Of a stretch of DNA of 64,000 nucleotides, positions 39,512 through 46,073 are shown one piece after another. Each line of letters begins with the position of its first letter. Positions within the stretch are counted from its first letter, which is position 1. This stretch comes from Amycolatopsis acidiphila (GTDB lineage: Bacteria; Actinomycetota; Actinomycetes; Mycobacteriales; Pseudonocardiaceae). The notes beneath the pieces were generated by a model. That model had not been told where the DNA came from and did no database searches. It saw only the letters and a program-made list of their open reading frames with translations. The stretch is taken from positions 8,060,001-8,124,000 of the forward strand of contig NZ_CP090063.1 of the NCBI RefSeq assembly GCF_021391495.1, given 5' to 3'. The translations under genes were made by a program, and so were the position numbers.

Positions 39512-40195
39512 TCAGTTCTGGGAGATCCACTGTCCGGTCACGGAGTCGATCTTCGCGACCCCTTCGACGACGGTGTCGTGGCCGACGCCGCCCCACAGTT
39601 GGTCGCTGTCGGCGCTGGCCCCGTTGCCCGCCGTCTCGGTCCACTCGCCGGGACCGGTGTGCTCGTAGGTGTGTGACTCCCCGTCCGGCGTGATGATCGT
39701 CTGCACGTCCGCGGTGCCGTCGCCGTCGGTGTCGGTGAACAGCCGGGTGTTGCCGTCGGCGTCGGTCACGATCGCCGTGTCCGCGGTGCCGTCGTTGTCG
39801 CTGTCGACAGTCGCGTGCCCGAGGTCGACCGTGCCGTCGGACATGTCCGCGGTGATGTCGCCCTGGTGCCCCGCCTGGCTGTCGCCACCGGGCGAGCCGG
39901 GGCCGTCGGTGTCGGCGACCCAGTCCCCGGTGGTGGCGTCGAGCCGGGCCATGTCCACGACGTTGCCCTCGGTGTCGGTGTGCATGTACTCGTCGGCGCG
40001 GCCGTCCCCGTCGCTGTCCACGTACGCGGTCATCGTGCCGTCGGAGTTGTCCAGGCGGACCGCGTCGTCATGGCCGTCGTGGTCGATGTCGAAGTTCTCG
40101 TCAGCGGTGTAGGTCTGGCCCTCGACGGAGATCTCCAGCTCGCCGTCGTGCCCGGTGCCCGTCGTGTCCGCGCCACCAGTCTCGTCGATCCACAC
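39512..40195 (-). CDS. Acidic DxDxDG calcium-binding-like repeat protein
   Basis: Protein of 227 residues, very acidic. Four loops match the DxDxDGxxD calcium pattern: [29 protein letters not shown] and DTDGDGTAD. Each is followed by a beta-like strand, as in thrombospondin-3 or FG-GAP-like repeats. There is no signal peptide, so it is cytoplasmic or exported by another route. GTG 40195 is chosen because GGGGAG lies about 10 nt upstream and earlier residues look non-coding. It has its own terminator and lies just downstream of the dynamin-GrpE-dynamin operon; a hairpin at 40253-40281 separates them. Function unknown. Confidence 0.75.
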
Positions 40196-40293: not shown

Positions 40294-42120
40294 TCAGTGC
40301 TGGTCACGAAGCGTCCGAATCCTGGACAGGAAGCTCTCCGCGCGGTCCCGGCCGTCGCCGACCTCCCGCACCCGGCGGTTCAGCTCGGCGAGCTTGCGCG
40401 CGCGTTCCTGGGTGTCCATCTTGATCGCCTTGTCGACTTCCTTCAGCTCGGCCTCGATCGTCTCGATCCGCCTGGCCAGCGCGTCGTCCAGGGCCAGCGA
40501 GAGCTGCTGCTCTGCCTCGATGAGCTGCTCGGCGACCAGCTGGTCCAGCGTCGAACGGGCGTCGGCGATCGACTCGACGAGCCACTGCTTCATGTGCTGC
40601 TTGTCCGCCGCGTGCTTGCGCGTGCGGGCCATCCACCAGCCTGCGCCGAGCCCGATCACGATCGTCGCGGGCAGCACGACCGGGTTGAGCAGGGCGACCC
40701 CGGCCAGCGGCAGCGCGGCGATCTTTCCCGCGCCGACCCCGCCCGAGACACCCATGAACACCAGCAGCTTGTCCTCGGGCGTCGGCGGCCGCTTGTCCGG
40801 CGGCCGCAGCACGACCTGCGGGCCGCCGGCACGCAGGAACTGGGCGCGGATGACGTCGAGCTCCTCGGTGGAGAACAGGTCCGACAGCGCGATGTCGGTG
40901 ACCCGGTTGAGGCGGTGCGCCATGGTCCCGGACACCCGCTGCGAGATCATCTGCAACGCCGCGTCCACCTGCTGCGGCAGCTCGTGCAGCTGGTCGCGCT
41001 TGGCCGCCTCGATCTGCTGGCGGAACCAGGACTGGGCGTCGCGCATCTGCCGGCTCGACTCGTGCCCGAGATCGACCCTGGCGCGCTGGATCTCGCCGCG
41101 CAGCTTGAGCTGCCAGCCGCGGGTGGAGGAGCGGCGCTCGACCGCGAGCTGGTCCCGGCGGCCGCGCAGCACCTCGGCCTCGGCCTCGCCGGAGGACAAC
41201 GCGCGCTGCTCCGCCTTCAGCTTCGCGTGCTGCTCGCCCAGTGCCGTGGCGAGCGCGCGCATGGTGTTGGCCTCGCCGAGCATCGCCGACCGGCCGACCA
41301 GCTGCTCCTGCATCGCCGCCTGTAGCGCGATCACCCCGGACTGCTCGCGCAGCATCGTGGCCGCCTGCTCGCTCGGCGCGCGCGCCGCCAGCTCGAACAT
41401 GCGGGGCGAAACGGGATGGAACACGATGTCGGCGAAGCGCGGCGCGTGCTCGTCGAGCAGCCGGCGGTCCGCGTCGAGGACCTCGCGCCAGCCGCGGAAC
41501 TGGTCCGTTTTGGACAGTGTGAAGAGCACCGTCTCGACCCGGTCGCCGACCTTGCGCAGGAAGTCCAGCTCCCCGGCGGTGAACGGGGCCGAGGCGTCGA
41601 CCACGAACACCAGCGCGGTCGCGTTCGCGGCGGCCTCCATCGCCAGCTCACCGTGCATCGAGTTCAGCCCGCCCACACCTGGTGTGTCCACTATGGACAC
41701 CCGCTCGAGGATCGGCACCGGCCCGGCCACCTCGACGTAACGCGGCGGCAGCTGGCCTTCGGGCAGCTCGTGCGCGGCCGACACCCAGCGGACGAGCTCC
41801 GTGAGCGGGATCCCGACGGGCGCGAGCTGCCCCGGATAGCAGGCCTGCGCCGTCCACTCGGGCGCGTGCTCGAACACCAGATACGTCGCGGTGGCCACGT
41901 CCGCGTCCACCGGGGACAGTCCCGGCGTCGCGAGCAGCGCGTTCACCAGCGAGCTCTTGCCGCGGTTGGTCTCGCCGACCACCACGACGGACGGCTTGCG
42001 CGGCCGCGCGCGGCGGATGTCCTCGACCCACTTCGCCGCCTGCGGGTCGTTTTCGCGCAACAGCGTCAGCAGGGCGTCCCGGGCCTGCTTGACCTGGTTG
42101 GGCAGCGTGGCGGCTGTCAT
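40294..42120 (-). CDS. Dynamin-family GTPase (second of pair)
   Basis: Large GTPase of 608 residues likely acting on membranes. G1 is GETNRGKSS at about 49-57, G3 is VSIVDTPGVGGL, and G4 is weak (TLSKTD). Long helical stretches follow (LREQSGVIALQAAMQEQL to about 450). A hydrophobic hairpin IAALPLAGVALLNPVVLPAT followed by IVIGLGAGWWMA at about 480-515 resembles the membrane paddle of bacterial dynamins. Coiled coil fills the end. The ATG overlaps the GrpE-like stop (ATGA). Bacterial dynamins work in pairs (DynA/DynB, IniA/IniC); this gene and the one two upstream form such a pair. Confidence 0.9.
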   Translation of the reverse strand: MTAATLPNQVKQARDALLTLLRENDPQAAKWVEDIRRARPRKPSVVVVGETNRGKSSLVNALLATPGLSPVDADVATATYLVFEHAPEWTAQACYPGQLAPVGIPLTELVRWVSAAHELPEGQLPPRYVEVAGPVPILERVSIVDTPGVGGLNSMHGELAMEAAANATALVFVVDASAPFTAGELDFLRKVGDRVETVLFTLSKTDQFRGWREVLDADRRLLDEHAPRFADIVFHPVSPRMFELAARAPSEQAATMLREQSGVIALQAAMQEQLVGRSAMLGEANTMRALATALGEQHAKLKAEQRALSSGEAEAEVLRGRRDQLAVERRSSTRGWQLKLRGEIQRARVDLGHESSRQMRDAQSWFRQQIEAAKRDQLHELPQQVDAALQMISQRVSGTMAHRLNRVTDIALSDLFSTEELDVIRAQFLRAGGPQVVLRPPDKRPPTPEDKLLVFMGVSGGVGAGKIAALPLAGVALLNPVVLPATIVIGLGAGWWMARTRKHAADKQHMKQWLVESIADARSTLDQLVAEQLIEAEQQLSLALDDALARRIETIEAELKEVDKAIKMDTQERARKLAELNRRVREVGDGRDRAESFLSRIRTLRDQH

Positions 42121-42569
42121 CGCTTCGTGTACACCGTGACGACGGGCGCGCGCAGCAGCTGTTCGTGGTCGGCGAACCCGACCACCTCCGTCTCCGCGAC
42201 CACGCCGTCGAGCGCCGGGTCGTCGGTCAGCACCGCGCCGCCCGCCTCGTGGCACGACGGGTCGAACCGCTGGCCGTCCGGGCGGACCGCGGTCACCCCG
42301 ATCCCGGCCAGACCCTGCTCGATGCGCTCGACGACCCCGCCACTGCGGGCCCGGTCCAGCGCGTACAGGCACAGCTGGATCAGCGCCTGGCGATCGGCCA
42401 GTGCCCGCGTCAACACGGTCTCCACATCGGCGTCCGACGCGTCGGGGGACTCGGCGGTTCCGTCGGCCTCCTCGATGATCTGCGCCATGTGCACGGCCGG
42501 GATCTGCCCGGTCGGGTCGTCGGTGTCGGCGTCCGGCTCCCGGCGGAACCACGCAGGCATCCCGCTCAC
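42117..42569 (-). CDS. Short GrpE-like nucleotide-exchange-factor protein
   Basis: Protein of 150 residues whose C-terminal half carries the GrpE beta domain: IGVTAVRPDGQRFDPSCHEA (the FDP..HEA hallmark) then VVAETEVVGFADHEQLLRAP and VVTVYTKR. The N-terminus is acidic and disordered, and the long GrpE coiled coil is much reduced (about residues 48-85). It is therefore a divergent paralogue, not the housekeeping grpE. No dnaK or dnaJ is adjacent. Start GTG overlaps the upstream dynamin stop (GTGA) and its stop overlaps the next ATG (ATGA), so it is locked into the dynamin operon. Confidence 0.85.
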   Translation of the reverse strand: MSGMPAWFRREPDADTDDPTGQIPAVHMAQIIEEADGTAESPDASDADVETVLTRALADRQALIQLCLYALDRARSGGVVERIEQGLAGIGVTAVRPDGQRFDPSCHEAGGAVLTDDPALDGVVAETEVVGFADHEQLLRAPVVTVYTKR

Positions 42570-44116
42570 CTCCGGTTCTCGCGCAGTTGTTGCCAGATCA
42601 GGAAGTACGCGCGATGCACGACGTGGGCCACCCTGCTCTGCGCCGGCGTCGCACCGAAGGACGCGAACGAGCGCCACCAGCCCGCCCGTTCGAGCGCGTG
42701 CGCGGCGAGGTCCGCCCGGGTGCCGCCGGGAAGGCCGAGCTGGGCGTCGATGTCGGCGTTGCTGCCGACCCGCAGCACCTCCTCGGCGAGGTCCTCCGGC
42801 ATGTCCACCGCGCCGGCCACCACCAGCGTCAGTGCCTCCAGCAGGCGCAGCTGGTGTGCCTCGGGCTTGGCGAGCAGCACCTCGATCGCGTCGTGCACCC
42901 GCTGCCGCTCGGCCGGATTGCCCGAGGCGTGCGCGAGCGCCGTCACCGACGCGAGCGCGGCGGCGGCCTTGATGCCGTCGGCGCGCGCGGCGAACACGAC
43001 GTTGAGCCGGGCCCGGACCCCGGCGAGACCCGACGCTTCGAGCAGCATCCGGCGCAGCGAGCCCGCGGTGATCTGCGGGTCGGCGCGGATCGCGTCGATC
43101 GCGCAGCGGACGCCGTAGAGGTCGAGCTTCTCCAGCAGCCGCAGCCGCGTGCCGGTGGGCACGTCGCATTCCCAGCTGGTGAAGATGTCCGTCGCGACGA
43201 GCATGGTCTCCAGCACGGCTTCGTCCAAAGTGGACAACTGTCGCAGCGCCTCGGCGTCGGCCGAGGTGAACTGGCCGGACTCGGCGGACTCGGCGATCAG
43301 CCCGATCACCGGCAGCACGTCGGCGACCCGGGGCTTGAGCAGCGCCGCCTGCTTCTCGGCAAGGATCGTGGCCGCCTTCCAGATGTCGTTGCCCGCGCCC
43401 TGCACGGACTCCGGCGCGATGGTGTCGGCCTTGTTCAGCACCGCGATCGCGTTGACCGGGCCTGCCTCGCGGCCGGCCGTGGCGGCGGTGAACGCCGCGA
43501 GGACCTGCTGGTCGTCCGCGCGCACGCCCTGGGTCACCACGTAGAGCACCGCCTCCGCGCCGGCGACGGCGTTGTGCGACGTGCGGTCGAGCTCGCCCGG
43601 GTTCTCCGCCCCCTCGTCCTGCTTGGCGGCACCGAGCAACTCCTCGGTGCGGGAGACCGAGGCGGCGTCGAGCGAGCCGAGCCCCGGGGTGTCGATGACG
43701 GTCATGCCCTGCAGGACCGCGTTCGTCAGGTAGGCCTCGATGTGCGAGACCTCGGCGATGTCCACCCCCAGCTCGGCGGGAATGCTCCCGTCGGGCGCGA
43801 ACGGCAGCACCTGCTTGCGGCCGCCCGCGAACACCACCTCGATGCGGTCCACGGTGCCGTACTGGAACCGGGTGACCAGCCGGGTGCACTCGCCGACGTC
43901 CGTCGGCGCGACCCGGCGCCCGATCAGGGCGTTGACCAGGGTGGACTTGCCGGACTTGATGCGCCCGGCGACCGCGACCTGCAGCGGCGCGCTCAGCCTG
44001 CGGACGACCTCGGCGAACCCGGCCGCGGTGCGGGCGGACACCTGCGGCTGCAACCGGTGGCAGAGGTTGGCCACCGACATCGACAGGGGGCCCGCCAGCC
44101 GGCCCTGGTCCGTCAC
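42566..44116 (-). CDS. Dynamin-family GTPase (first of pair)
   Basis: GTPase of 516 residues. G1 is AGRIKSGKSTLVNALIG at about 50-66, G2 a conserved Thr in GECTRLVTRF, G3 is VIDTPGLGSLD, and G4 is VLNKADTI. An assembly-type helical region follows from about 280. No clear membrane hairpin is present, so it may rely on its partner for membrane contact. GTG 44116 has GGGAGGGGG about 5 nt upstream. It heads the three-gene operon. The 122-nt gap upstream is shared with the divergent sensor-kinase gene at 44239. Confidence 0.9.
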   Translation of the reverse strand: MTDQGRLAGPLSMSVANLCHRLQPQVSARTAAGFAEVVRRLSAPLQVAVAGRIKSGKSTLVNALIGRRVAPTDVGECTRLVTRFQYGTVDRIEVVFAGGRKQVLPFAPDGSIPAELGVDIAEVSHIEAYLTNAVLQGMTVIDTPGLGSLDAASVSRTEELLGAAKQDEGAENPGELDRTSHNAVAGAEAVLYVVTQGVRADDQQVLAAFTAATAGREAGPVNAIAVLNKADTIAPESVQGAGNDIWKAATILAEKQAALLKPRVADVLPVIGLIAESAESGQFTSADAEALRQLSTLDEAVLETMLVATDIFTSWECDVPTGTRLRLLEKLDLYGVRCAIDAIRADPQITAGSLRRMLLEASGLAGVRARLNVVFAARADGIKAAAALASVTALAHASGNPAERQRVHDAIEVLLAKPEAHQLRLLEALTLVVAGAVDMPEDLAEEVLRVGSNADIDAQLGLPGGTRADLAAHALERAGWWRSFASFGATPAQSRVAHVVHRAYFLIWQQLRENRR

Positions 44117-44238
44117 GTCGCCCCCTCCCAGACCGGGTTTCCAGAGCCCGAATCCTGCCACGGATCGTCCCCTGGTCCTACCGAAGGTGCTACCGGCGGA
44201 TGACGCGCAGTCGACGGGGGCGGACCTAGGGTGAACAG

Positions 44239-45420
44239 GTGCGGCGACTGAGTCTGTGGATGCGAGCGCACCCGATGGCCGGGGACACCCTGCTCGCCGC
44301 GTTGCTGCTGCTCTTCGACCTGCTGCTGCTGATCGCCGCGGCGCCGGCCAGCTCGATGAAGCCGTGGTACGTCGCGGTGCCGGTGGACCTGGCGATGACG
44401 GTGCCGATCGTGTTCCGGCGCCGGTCCCCGATGATCGTCGCGTACGTCGTGCTGGCCGTCAGTGTCGTGCACAGCTCGTTGCACCTGGGGTCCGCCAGTC
44501 TCACCGCGAGCGCGATCTCGCTGTACACGCTGATCGTCTACGTGGGACGCAAGCAGGCGGGCCTGTACCTCGGGGCGCAGGTGATCTGCACCGGCGTGCA
44601 GCTCGCCCTGGGCTGGGAGGCGGGCAACTGGGTCATCGTGATCATCGCGGCACTGGTGGGGGCGTTCACCTGGGTGCTCGGCGAGTTCGTCGGGGCGCGG
44701 CGGGCCTACCACGCGGAGGTCGAGGCGCGGCTGCACCTGCTGGAGACCGAGCGCGACCAGGCCAGCCGCATCGCCGTCGCACAGGAGCGGGGCCGGATCG
44801 CCCGCGAGCTGCACGACGTCGTGGCGCACGCGGTGAGCGTGATCGTGGTGCAGGCCGACGGGGCGTCGTACGCCGTGCGGTCCAACCCCGAGCTGGCCGA
44901 GCGGGCGGTGCAGACGATCTCGAACACCGGGCGGGAGGCGCTCGCCGAGCTGCGGCGGCTGCTGGAGGTGCTGCGCAACGAGGACGGCGCGGGCGTGCCG
45001 CGCATCCCGCAGCCGGACGCCGAGTCGCTCGCCGAGCTGGTCGAACGCGTGCGGCAGGCCGGGGTGCCGGTCCGGCTGGAGATCGAGGGCACGCTCGCCG
45101 GGCTGCCCGCCGGGGTGTCGCTCGGGGTGTACCGGATCGTGCAGGAGTCGCTGACGAACACGCTCAAGCACGCGGGCCGGGGGGCGCGGGCGGACGTGCG
45201 GATCGAGCGCGGGGAGGAGCTGGTGGACGTCGTCGTCACCGACGACGGGGCCGGCAAGGCGCGTGAGCTCGTGCCCGCGGAACGGCAGCTGCCCGGCGGC
45301 AACGGCGTGATCGGGATGCGCGAGCGCGCGAACGTGTACGGCGGTTCGCTCGACGTCGGTCCCGCGCCCGGTGGCGGGTGGCGGGTGCACGCGCGGCTGC
45401 CCATTAGGTTGGCGCAGTGA
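44239..45420 (+). CDS. NarL-type two-component sensor histidine kinase
   Basis: Membrane sensor of 393 residues. Four to five N-terminal helices (about 17-150) have almost no external loop, so it may sense within the membrane. A short coiled coil leads to the HisKA_3 dimerisation box with His192 (RELHDVVAHAVSVIVVQ), and an ATP-binding domain with RIVQESLTNTLKHA (N box), VTDDGAG and GNGVIGMRERA. GTG 44239 is exactly 6 nt after TAGGGT (44227-44232), so leaderless. It is coupled to the response regulator by a GTGA overlap and divergent from the dynamin operon. Confidence 0.94.
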   Translation: MRRLSLWMRAHPMAGDTLLAALLLLFDLLLLIAAAPASSMKPWYVAVPVDLAMTVPIVFRRRSPMIVAYVVLAVSVVHSSLHLGSASLTASAISLYTLIVYVGRKQAGLYLGAQVICTGVQLALGWEAGNWVIVIIAALVGAFTWVLGEFVGARRAYHAEVEARLHLLETERDQASRIAVAQERGRIARELHDVVAHAVSVIVVQADGASYAVRSNPELAERAVQTISNTGREALAELRRLLEVLRNEDGAGVPRIPQPDAESLAELVERVRQAGVPVRLEIEGTLAGLPAGVSLGVYRIVQESLTNTLKHAGRGARADVRIERGEELVDVVVTDDGAGKARELVPAERQLPGGNGVIGMRERANVYGGSLDVGPAPGGGWRVHARLPIRLAQ

Positions 45421-46073
45421 TCAGTGTTGTCGTCGTCGACGATCAGGAGCTGATGCGGGCCGGGTTCCGCATGGTGCTCGGCGCGCAGGAGGGCATCGAC
45501 CTGGTCGGCGAGGCCGCCGACGGCGCCGAGGCGGTGCGGCTGGCCGAGCGGCTGCGGCCCGACGTGGTGCTGATGGACGTGCGGATGCCGGTGCTGGACG
45601 GGGTGGAGGCGACGAAGCAGATCGTCGAGGCCGGGACCTCGCGGGTGCTGGTGATGACGACGTTCGACCTGGACGAGTACGTGTACGCGGCGCTCCAGGG
45701 CGGGGCCAGCGGGTTCCTGCTGAAGGACACACCCCCGGCGCACCTGGTGTCGGCGCTGCACGCGGTGGCCGGCGGGGAGGCGGTGGTGTCGCCGTCGGTG
45801 ACGCGGCGGCTGCTCGACCGGTTCGTCGGCGCGGGCGGCGGCACGCTGCGGGACGAGTCGGAGCTGCAGCCGCTGACCGAGCGGGAGCGGGAGGTGCTCG
45901 TGCTGATCGCGAAGGGTCTGTCGAACGTCGAGATCGCGGAGACGCTGTTCCTCTCCGAGGCGACGGTGAAGACCCACGTCGGGCGGATCCTGTCGAAGCT
46001 CGGCCTGCGGGACCGGGTGCAGGCGGTGGTGCTGGCCTACGAGACGGGGTTGATCCGGCCGGGACAGGGCTGA
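45417..46073 (+). CDS. NarL/LuxR-type response regulator
   Basis: DNA-binding response regulator of 218 residues. The receiver is intact: acidic pair DD at 8-9, phosphoacceptor Asp54 (VVLMDVRMPVLDG), Thr at 81 and Lys103 (GFLLKDTPP). The LuxR helix-turn-helix reads LTEREREVLVLIAKGLSNVE and SEATVKTHVGRILSKLGL. The GTG overlaps the kinase stop (GTGA). The likely targets are the system itself and perhaps the adjacent dynamin operon; that is inference. Confidence 0.95.
   Translation: MISVVVVDDQELMRAGFRMVLGAQEGIDLVGEAADGAEAVRLAERLRPDVVLMDVRMPVLDGVEATKQIVEAGTSRVLVMTTFDLDEYVYAALQGGASGFLLKDTPPAHLVSALHAVAGGEAVVSPSVTRRLLDRFVGAGGGTLRDESELQPLTEREREVLVLIAKGLSNVEIAETLFLSEATVKTHVGRILSKLGLRDRVQAVVLAYETGLIRPGQG

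Follow-up and report, generated by a model that had tools for sequence, protein, structure and literature searches.

Pairs of bacterial dynamins that form hetero-oligomers are known from Campylobacter (PMC6104087), and a review has noted DnaK-domain proteins downstream of cyanobacterial dynamins of one clade, called the 'chaperone clade' (PMC5827413). In Mycobacterium smegmatis, Boot et al. reported a dnaK-like gene beside iniR (PMC5760070). Since, in the parts of the sources used here, both PMC5760070 and PMC5827413 note DnaK-like genes beside dynamins, a neighbourhood of Hsp70 and dynamin genes is not new as such. Here, we describe a gene for a GrpE-like protein that lies between the genes of two dynamin-like GTPases, dynC and dynA, in a stretch of 64,000 nucleotides of the 8.18 Mb genome of Amycolatopsis acidiphila (G000:C1:8060001-8124000, hereafter the window, with positions counted from its first letter). 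We consider, with a probability of roughly 0.55, that this trio supplies the dynamins of a dedicated Hsp70-type module, in which the GrpE-like protein would be the exchange factor of a membrane Hsp70 that controls the dynamins.

A GrpE-like gene between two dynamin genes

The three genes and the overlaps that join them are listed below in the order of transcription.

42566-44116, minus strand: DynC, IniC-type dynamin-like GTPase, first gene; 516 amino acids, Pfam Dynamin_N E=9e-13
42566-42569, minus strand: GTGA overlap of the dynC stop and the grpE-like start, from the sequence and translations
42117-42569, minus strand: GrpE-like protein, middle gene; 150 amino acids, Pfam GrpE E=2.1e-6
42117-42120, minus strand: ATGA overlap of the grpE-like stop and the dynA start, from the sequence and translations
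40294-42120, minus strand: DynA, IniA-type dynamin-like GTPase, last gene; 608 amino acids, Pfam Dynamin_N E=6e-14

An earlier reading of the window, made from the sequence only, had described two dynamins flanking a GrpE-like gene with GTGA and ATGA overlaps, and the coordinates, overlaps and Pfam domains all agree with it; the three-gene operon is real. The start codon of dynC is GTG, with an in-frame GTG at 44161 as a possible alternative, and that of dynA is ATG. Both outer proteins have the Dynamin_N GTPase domain, with GRIKSGKST and DTPG in DynC and GETNRGKSS and DTPG in DynA, which we take to be the P-loop and the DTPG motif of these enzymes. DynA matches the IniA structure 6j72 over residues 31-583 (phmmer E=4.3e-16), and a hydrophobicity analysis gave hydrophobic stretches at ~452-490.

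Gene order is conserved in relatives

A homologue of the GrpE-like protein was found in 68 of 100 nearby genomes, and 20 loci were chosen among these relatives and fetched. A further set comprised the best 80 loci of 212 named relatives. The order dynC-grpE-dynA on a common strand was kept in 19 of the 20 fetched loci, at identities to the window's proteins that fall to ~37-49%, and 78 of the 80 named loci hold all three genes, ordered and on one strand; the contig of the other two begins at the GrpE-like gene and hence has no dynC. As order and strand recur to this extent, the arrangement is not a product of chance, and the sequence-only reading, which had proposed looking for the three-gene order in related genomes, gains on this point. 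The GrpE-like gene adjoins dynA in all 78 named loci and dynC in 62 of them, and the four-base overlaps are kept in 33/78 (dynC/grpE) and 51/78 (grpE/dynA). The closest named locus among the best 80 is that of Amycolatopsis alkalitolerans, with 86% identity over ~4.7 kb.

Two of the loci deserve separate mention. In L059, a fatty-acid desaturase gene (L059:10946-11980; PF03405, 6.6e-70) stands between the GrpE-like gene and dynA. The record of L088, titled Rhodococcus rhodnii NRRL B-16535, gives trio scores and coordinates nearly equal to those of Kibdelosporangium aridum (L089) and is perhaps mislabelled.

With a profile of the GrpE-like protein, 79 of the 298 genomes searched in the order reached at least 100 bits, and none of these belongs to family f8. 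Below this value came G176 (88 bits) and G203 (53 bits), followed by matches of at most 44 bits, which were taken as canonical GrpEs. The search beyond the order covered a sample of 396 genomes of the phylum, some of which belong to the same order, and returned a single genome at E 1e-12 or better, the one that contains the window.

A membrane Hsp70 co-occurs with the trio

A Pfam Hsp70 family search over the 298 genomes gave mostly ordinary DnaKs and was replaced by a search of 80 and then 54 genomes with A3, an ATPase-domain profile. Matches of at least 475 bits were called class A, a border that other Hsp70-like paralogues of genus g16 reach at ~470-480 bits and that is clean at the level of genomes, the weakest positive being G090 (475.8 bits, linked to the trio) and the strongest negative G025 (438.8 bits). 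A class-A Hsp70 was present in 69 of the 88 GrpE-like-positive genomes versus 2 of the 44 negative ones (G067 and G116), which corresponds to a Fisher p of 3e-17, without correction for kinship. These numbers pool the first set (44/49 versus 1/29) and the second (25/39 versus 1/15). The same contrast was seen within families (43/60 versus 0/8 in f1, 6/6 versus 1/10 in f4, and 8/8 versus 0/6 in f15), and class A occurs in 28 of 34 GrpE-like-positive genera. The divergent modules of G176 and G203, where the linked Hsp70-like gene scores 312-327 bits, were set aside from this tally.

In 19 of the 69 genomes holding both genes, from nine genera and several families, at most 10 kb separates the class-A gene from the GrpE-like gene, and draft contigs may hide further cases. 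Class A is encoded upstream and on the strand of the trio in 11 of these 19 (10 within 5 kb and G070 at 8.7 kb), downstream and convergent in seven, and divergent in one; the linkage thus survives rearrangement. Eight of the 20 fetched loci have an Hsp70 neighbour (L057, L059-L063, L065 and L066), so that the linked Hsp70, which the sequence-only reading had proposed searching for in relatives, was indeed found. In L059, L065 and L066 its gene immediately precedes dynC and shares its strand, with a predicted gap of ~40-75 nucleotides. The Hsp70s in the 20 loci are all nearest to one atypical Hsp70 of the window's genome, its class-A protein, both DnaKs of this genome being among the queries. 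A full class-A Hsp70 is present in three of the 80 named loci (L094 and L132 of Allokutzneria, L126 of Virgisporangium), and L090 has a weak Hsp70 piece at its edge. According to the Pfam columns, no dynamin was fused to GrpE or Hsp70 among the 120 listed of 1683 DynC homologues or the 120 listed of 4881 Hsp70 homologues.

The window's genome has five Hsp70 matches, comprising two canonical DnaKs and three atypical proteins. Each DnaK gene (5275560 and 7947906) abuts a gene for a full canonical GrpE (5274980 and 7949954), and the third and last GrpE match of the genome is the GrpE-like gene of the window. The class-A gene lies at G000:C1:6161394-6162455, 1.9 Mb from the trio, with no GrpE adjoining it and with neighbours that are presumably recA and a helicase. 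Because both DnaKs have a GrpE of their own and class A has none adjoining, the GrpE-like protein and the class-A Hsp70 can be paired by elimination. Another atypical Hsp70 is the short protein of a second dynamin locus described below. At G000:C1:661297-662385 (L015:9285-11141) there is a related Hsp70-like paralogue with a transmembrane-like segment, and matches of similar score (~400-425 bits) are found in many genomes of the family. None of the five Hsp70 matches lies in the window, and Pfam detected no J-domain in the trio, the gene behind it or ten neighbours (35-51 kb), in keeping with the earlier statement that the locus lacks dnaK and dnaJ.

Domain make-up of the GrpE-like protein and the membrane Hsp70

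The GrpE-like protein is laid out as a variable N-terminus, a short helical part and a GrpE head. Its Pfam GrpE match covers residues 82-146 only, at 27.9 bits versus a cut-off of 25.8. The beta-rich head with its FDPxxHEA-type motif was recovered by Pfam, by the structure model, by fold matching and by alignment with the canonical GrpE of the same genome. The F, D, H and E of the motif, as well as a Gly after the helix, are present in every aligned row, and all or almost all rows have an Arg ahead of the last strand. When the predicted model was used in Foldseek, the 12 best matches were all GrpE, and the predicted fold matches structures of GrpE bound to DnaK; we conclude that the middle protein is predicted to have the GrpE fold. 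Canonical GrpEs pair their two subunits through long helices at the N-terminus; this part of the model has one helix of 28 residues (46-73), with block means of 60-76 for residues 1-50. The homologues in L061 and L062 have two hydrophobic segments.

The class-A Hsp70 comprises an Hsp70 ATPase domain, a long disordered linker and a transmembrane helix. Two members score 119 and 103 bits against PF00012, and in an alignment with DnaK the phosphate and adenosine motifs coincide. The structure predicted for one member resembles DnaK, which was also its top Foldseek match. No substrate-binding domain was found in the two members scored with Pfam, where the PF00012 match stops at profile position 368 or 372 of 599, and none of the 120 homologues listed has the conserved Hsp70 linker pattern. 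Beyond residue 355, 114 of these 120 have a transmembrane-like segment; of the six that do not, five are no longer than 405 amino acids. In the modelled member, the linker has a predicted local distance difference test (pLDDT) score of ~40, and the end helix (557-578) is of the transmembrane type. These predictions indicate that the class-A Hsp70 is membrane-anchored and has no substrate-binding domain.

Proposed mechanism and alternative explanations

With gene order, Hsp70 co-occurrence and linkage, domain make-up, predicted folds and retained ATP-site motifs as observations, we infer a series of protein-protein steps that would include binding, ADP release and an effect on the dynamins or on membranes. 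At the membrane, the anchored Hsp70 would switch between ATP and ADP states, with the GrpE-like protein as its private nucleotide-exchange factor that would free ADP from it, and this switch may recruit, assemble or reset a DynC/DynA hetero-oligomer. The sequence-only reading had suggested an Hsp70 cycle acting on the dynamins. The linked Hsp70 of relatives speaks for this part, but that protein is neither of the genome's two DnaKs, and its membrane anchor and missing substrate-binding domain do not point to dynamin assemblies passing through a classical folding cycle.

Several observations weigh against a dedicated module of this kind. In 16 of the 78 named loci, dynC is separated from the GrpE-like gene by other genes (inserts of 0.65-4.8 kb behind dynC, for example in L110 and L129, with open reading frames that differ among loci). 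Three genomes, G024, G052 and G116, have dynC followed directly by dynA, without the GrpE-like gene, which makes this factor dispensable in some lineages, and one of them, G116, keeps an Hsp70 ~6 kb upstream of the pair. The reverse case is G069, where a GrpE-like gene (118 bits, locus L064) has no dynamins alongside. Class A was absent from 19 of the 88 GrpE-like-positive genomes, including all those seen of genera g33, g38 and g8, and of the 43 genomes of family f1 that have class A, 42 show no linkage between the Hsp70 and the trio. Finally, the alignment shows that the class-A Hsp70 is without about nine loop residues relative to DnaK, and the DnaK lobe that carries this loop faces GrpE. 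In view of the class-A-less positives, the pairs without a GrpE-like gene and the dynamin-less G069, the association of the trio with Hsp70 is strong but not obligate.

Some details of these genomes can be added. The 19 class-A-less positives still hold other Hsp70-like proteins, G041 of family f1 has a second Hsp70 copy 12.8 kb away, and L064 has no class-A Hsp70 near its GrpE-like gene either. A joint loss of the GrpE-like gene and the Hsp70 was considered and dropped, since two of the three GrpE-like-less pairs are without Hsp70 and one (G116) keeps it.

The same data can be explained differently. The GrpE-like protein might act as a structural adaptor for the two dynamins, its head binding without nucleotide exchange, and the association with Hsp70 might reflect a shared envelope-stress context. 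The position of its gene between both dynamins and invariably beside dynA in the named loci fits such a role, as do a Pfam match that recognises the head alone, barely above the cut-off, and the presence of the gene in the 19 genomes without class A. However, an adaptor would not account for the retention of GrpE-typical head residues (F, D, H and E of the motif, Gly and Arg), and the linkage to Hsp70 across nine genera would have to be a coincidence, so we regard this explanation as somewhat unlikely. The version put forward in the sequence-only reading, that the GrpE-like protein works for the ordinary DnaK machine and steers its folding cycle to dynamin assemblies, agrees with the match of the predicted fold to DnaK-bound GrpE, but each DnaK of the genome is adjoined by its own full GrpE and the Hsp70s of the 20 trio loci are all closest to an atypical one (J-proteins were not searched for in relatives), which makes it improbable. 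Simple co-transcription from a shared promoter, with no joint function, appears very improbable given the order kept in both sets of loci even at the lowest identities, although compact operons often have four-base overlaps and three dynC-dynA pairs do without the GrpE-like gene. A dedicated module with a membrane Hsp70 and its own exchange factor remains our preferred explanation.

Genes around the trio

The trio is flanked by the following features.

39512-40195, minus strand: acidic DUF6802 protein with repeated DxDxDG motifs, downstream of dynA; Pfam DUF6802 3e-8
44239-46073, plus strand: histidine kinase (HisKA_3) and LuxR-type response regulator, divergent from the trio; Pfam

The start of the DUF6802 gene is uncertain, as its open reading frame extends to 40273. 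A DUF6802 gene was found downstream of the trio in 77 of the 80 named loci, on the same strand in 72, and it is a possible fourth member of the operon. We assume that its DxDxDG repeats have a calcium-binding look, and a literature search for the protein gave no paper. The divergent histidine kinase and LuxR-type regulator, found within ~5 kb upstream in 61 of the 78 named loci with dynC, are candidate regulators of the trio. In L060:5606-8005, L061:4748-7231 and L062:4203-6803, LuxR-type regulators of 799-866 amino acids stand divergent beside the trio; these LuxR/AAA proteins are IniR-like in architecture only, and they align well with the regulator of the second dynamin locus in the LuxR domain only.

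A second dynamin locus and the iniBAC system

The window's genome has a second dynamin locus (L014:6345-14972; G000:C1:206-215 kb) with iniC-, iniA- and iniB-like genes, the last so named from the N-terminus of its protein, and, divergent from them, a gene for a 380-amino-acid Hsp70-like ATPase that is followed by one for a LuxR-type regulator. DynC is 32% identical to the IniC-like protein of this locus over 324 amino acids, and DynA and the IniA-like protein are distant paralogues (26% identity). Among 36 genomes searched, 22 had an iniA-type match of at least 150 bits, and in 14 of these a match to the short ATPase lies within 10 kb and is divergent, including weak matches in G117 (54 bits) and G143 (42 bits). 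As to the other eight, the two genes are on different contigs in G004 and 54 kb apart in G268, and six genomes of family f8 have no ATPase match. Further, non-divergent pairs occur in G022 and G044, and several iniA-plus-ATPase loci were seen in G020, G022, G044 and G059.

These loci allow a wider and more doubtful view, in which dynamin pairs across the order would be under an Hsp70-type switch. The membrane Hsp70 without a substrate domain would act as a signalling ATPase that, with its own exchange factor, loads or resets dynamins at the envelope, and iniBAC-type systems would use the shorter sister ATPase. An absent partner might then be a reason why purified IniC is unstable (PMC6715688).

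Comparison with known systems

In the literature searched, as far as it was available in part, we found neither a GrpE beside dynamins nor a membrane Hsp70 without a substrate-binding domain, nor their conservation. A search for dynamin together with GrpE gave no bacterial dynamin operon among the part of the results viewed, and the part of PMC13413693 used here does not mention Hsp70 or GrpE. Should the proposed module be confirmed, it would offer a testable answer to the question of how bacterial cells regulate their dynamins: an Hsp70 relative, served by an exchange factor of its own, would govern dynamin assembly at the expense of ATP. The module would likewise be an example of an Hsp70 employed as a switch instead of a folding machine, and a lead for the drug-induced iniBAC system.

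The trio resembles mycobacterial iniBAC/IniR in that it too has a pair of an IniA-type and an IniC-type dynamin, and its genome carries, in the second locus, iniB-, iniA- and iniC-like genes together with a LuxR-type regulator and a short, divergent Hsp70-like gene. It differs in that its order is not iniA then iniC but C, GrpE-like, A, thus reversed with the GrpE-like gene between the dynamins, and in that no iniB was found; the genome's own IniB-like query, which is of low complexity and makes a weak test, gave no match in the 20 loci. M. smegmatis is also without iniB (PMC5760070). The Campylobacter pair Cj-DLP1/2 (PMC6104087) and Streptomyces DynA/DynB (PMC8748795) are likewise two side-by-side dynamins, but the parts of these articles used here mention no chaperone partner. 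For the cyanobacterial chaperone clade, the relevant section of the review cites no GrpE and no dynamin pair (PMC5827413), and the make-up of its DnaK was not compared. With the canonical DnaK-DnaJ-GrpE machine, the module shares the GrpE head fold and the Hsp70 ATPase domain, but it is without a substrate-binding domain, has a membrane anchor and a shortened GrpE, and has no J-protein around the trio of the window. This combination points to an unusual switch, driven by ATP, that would act in the remodelling of membranes.

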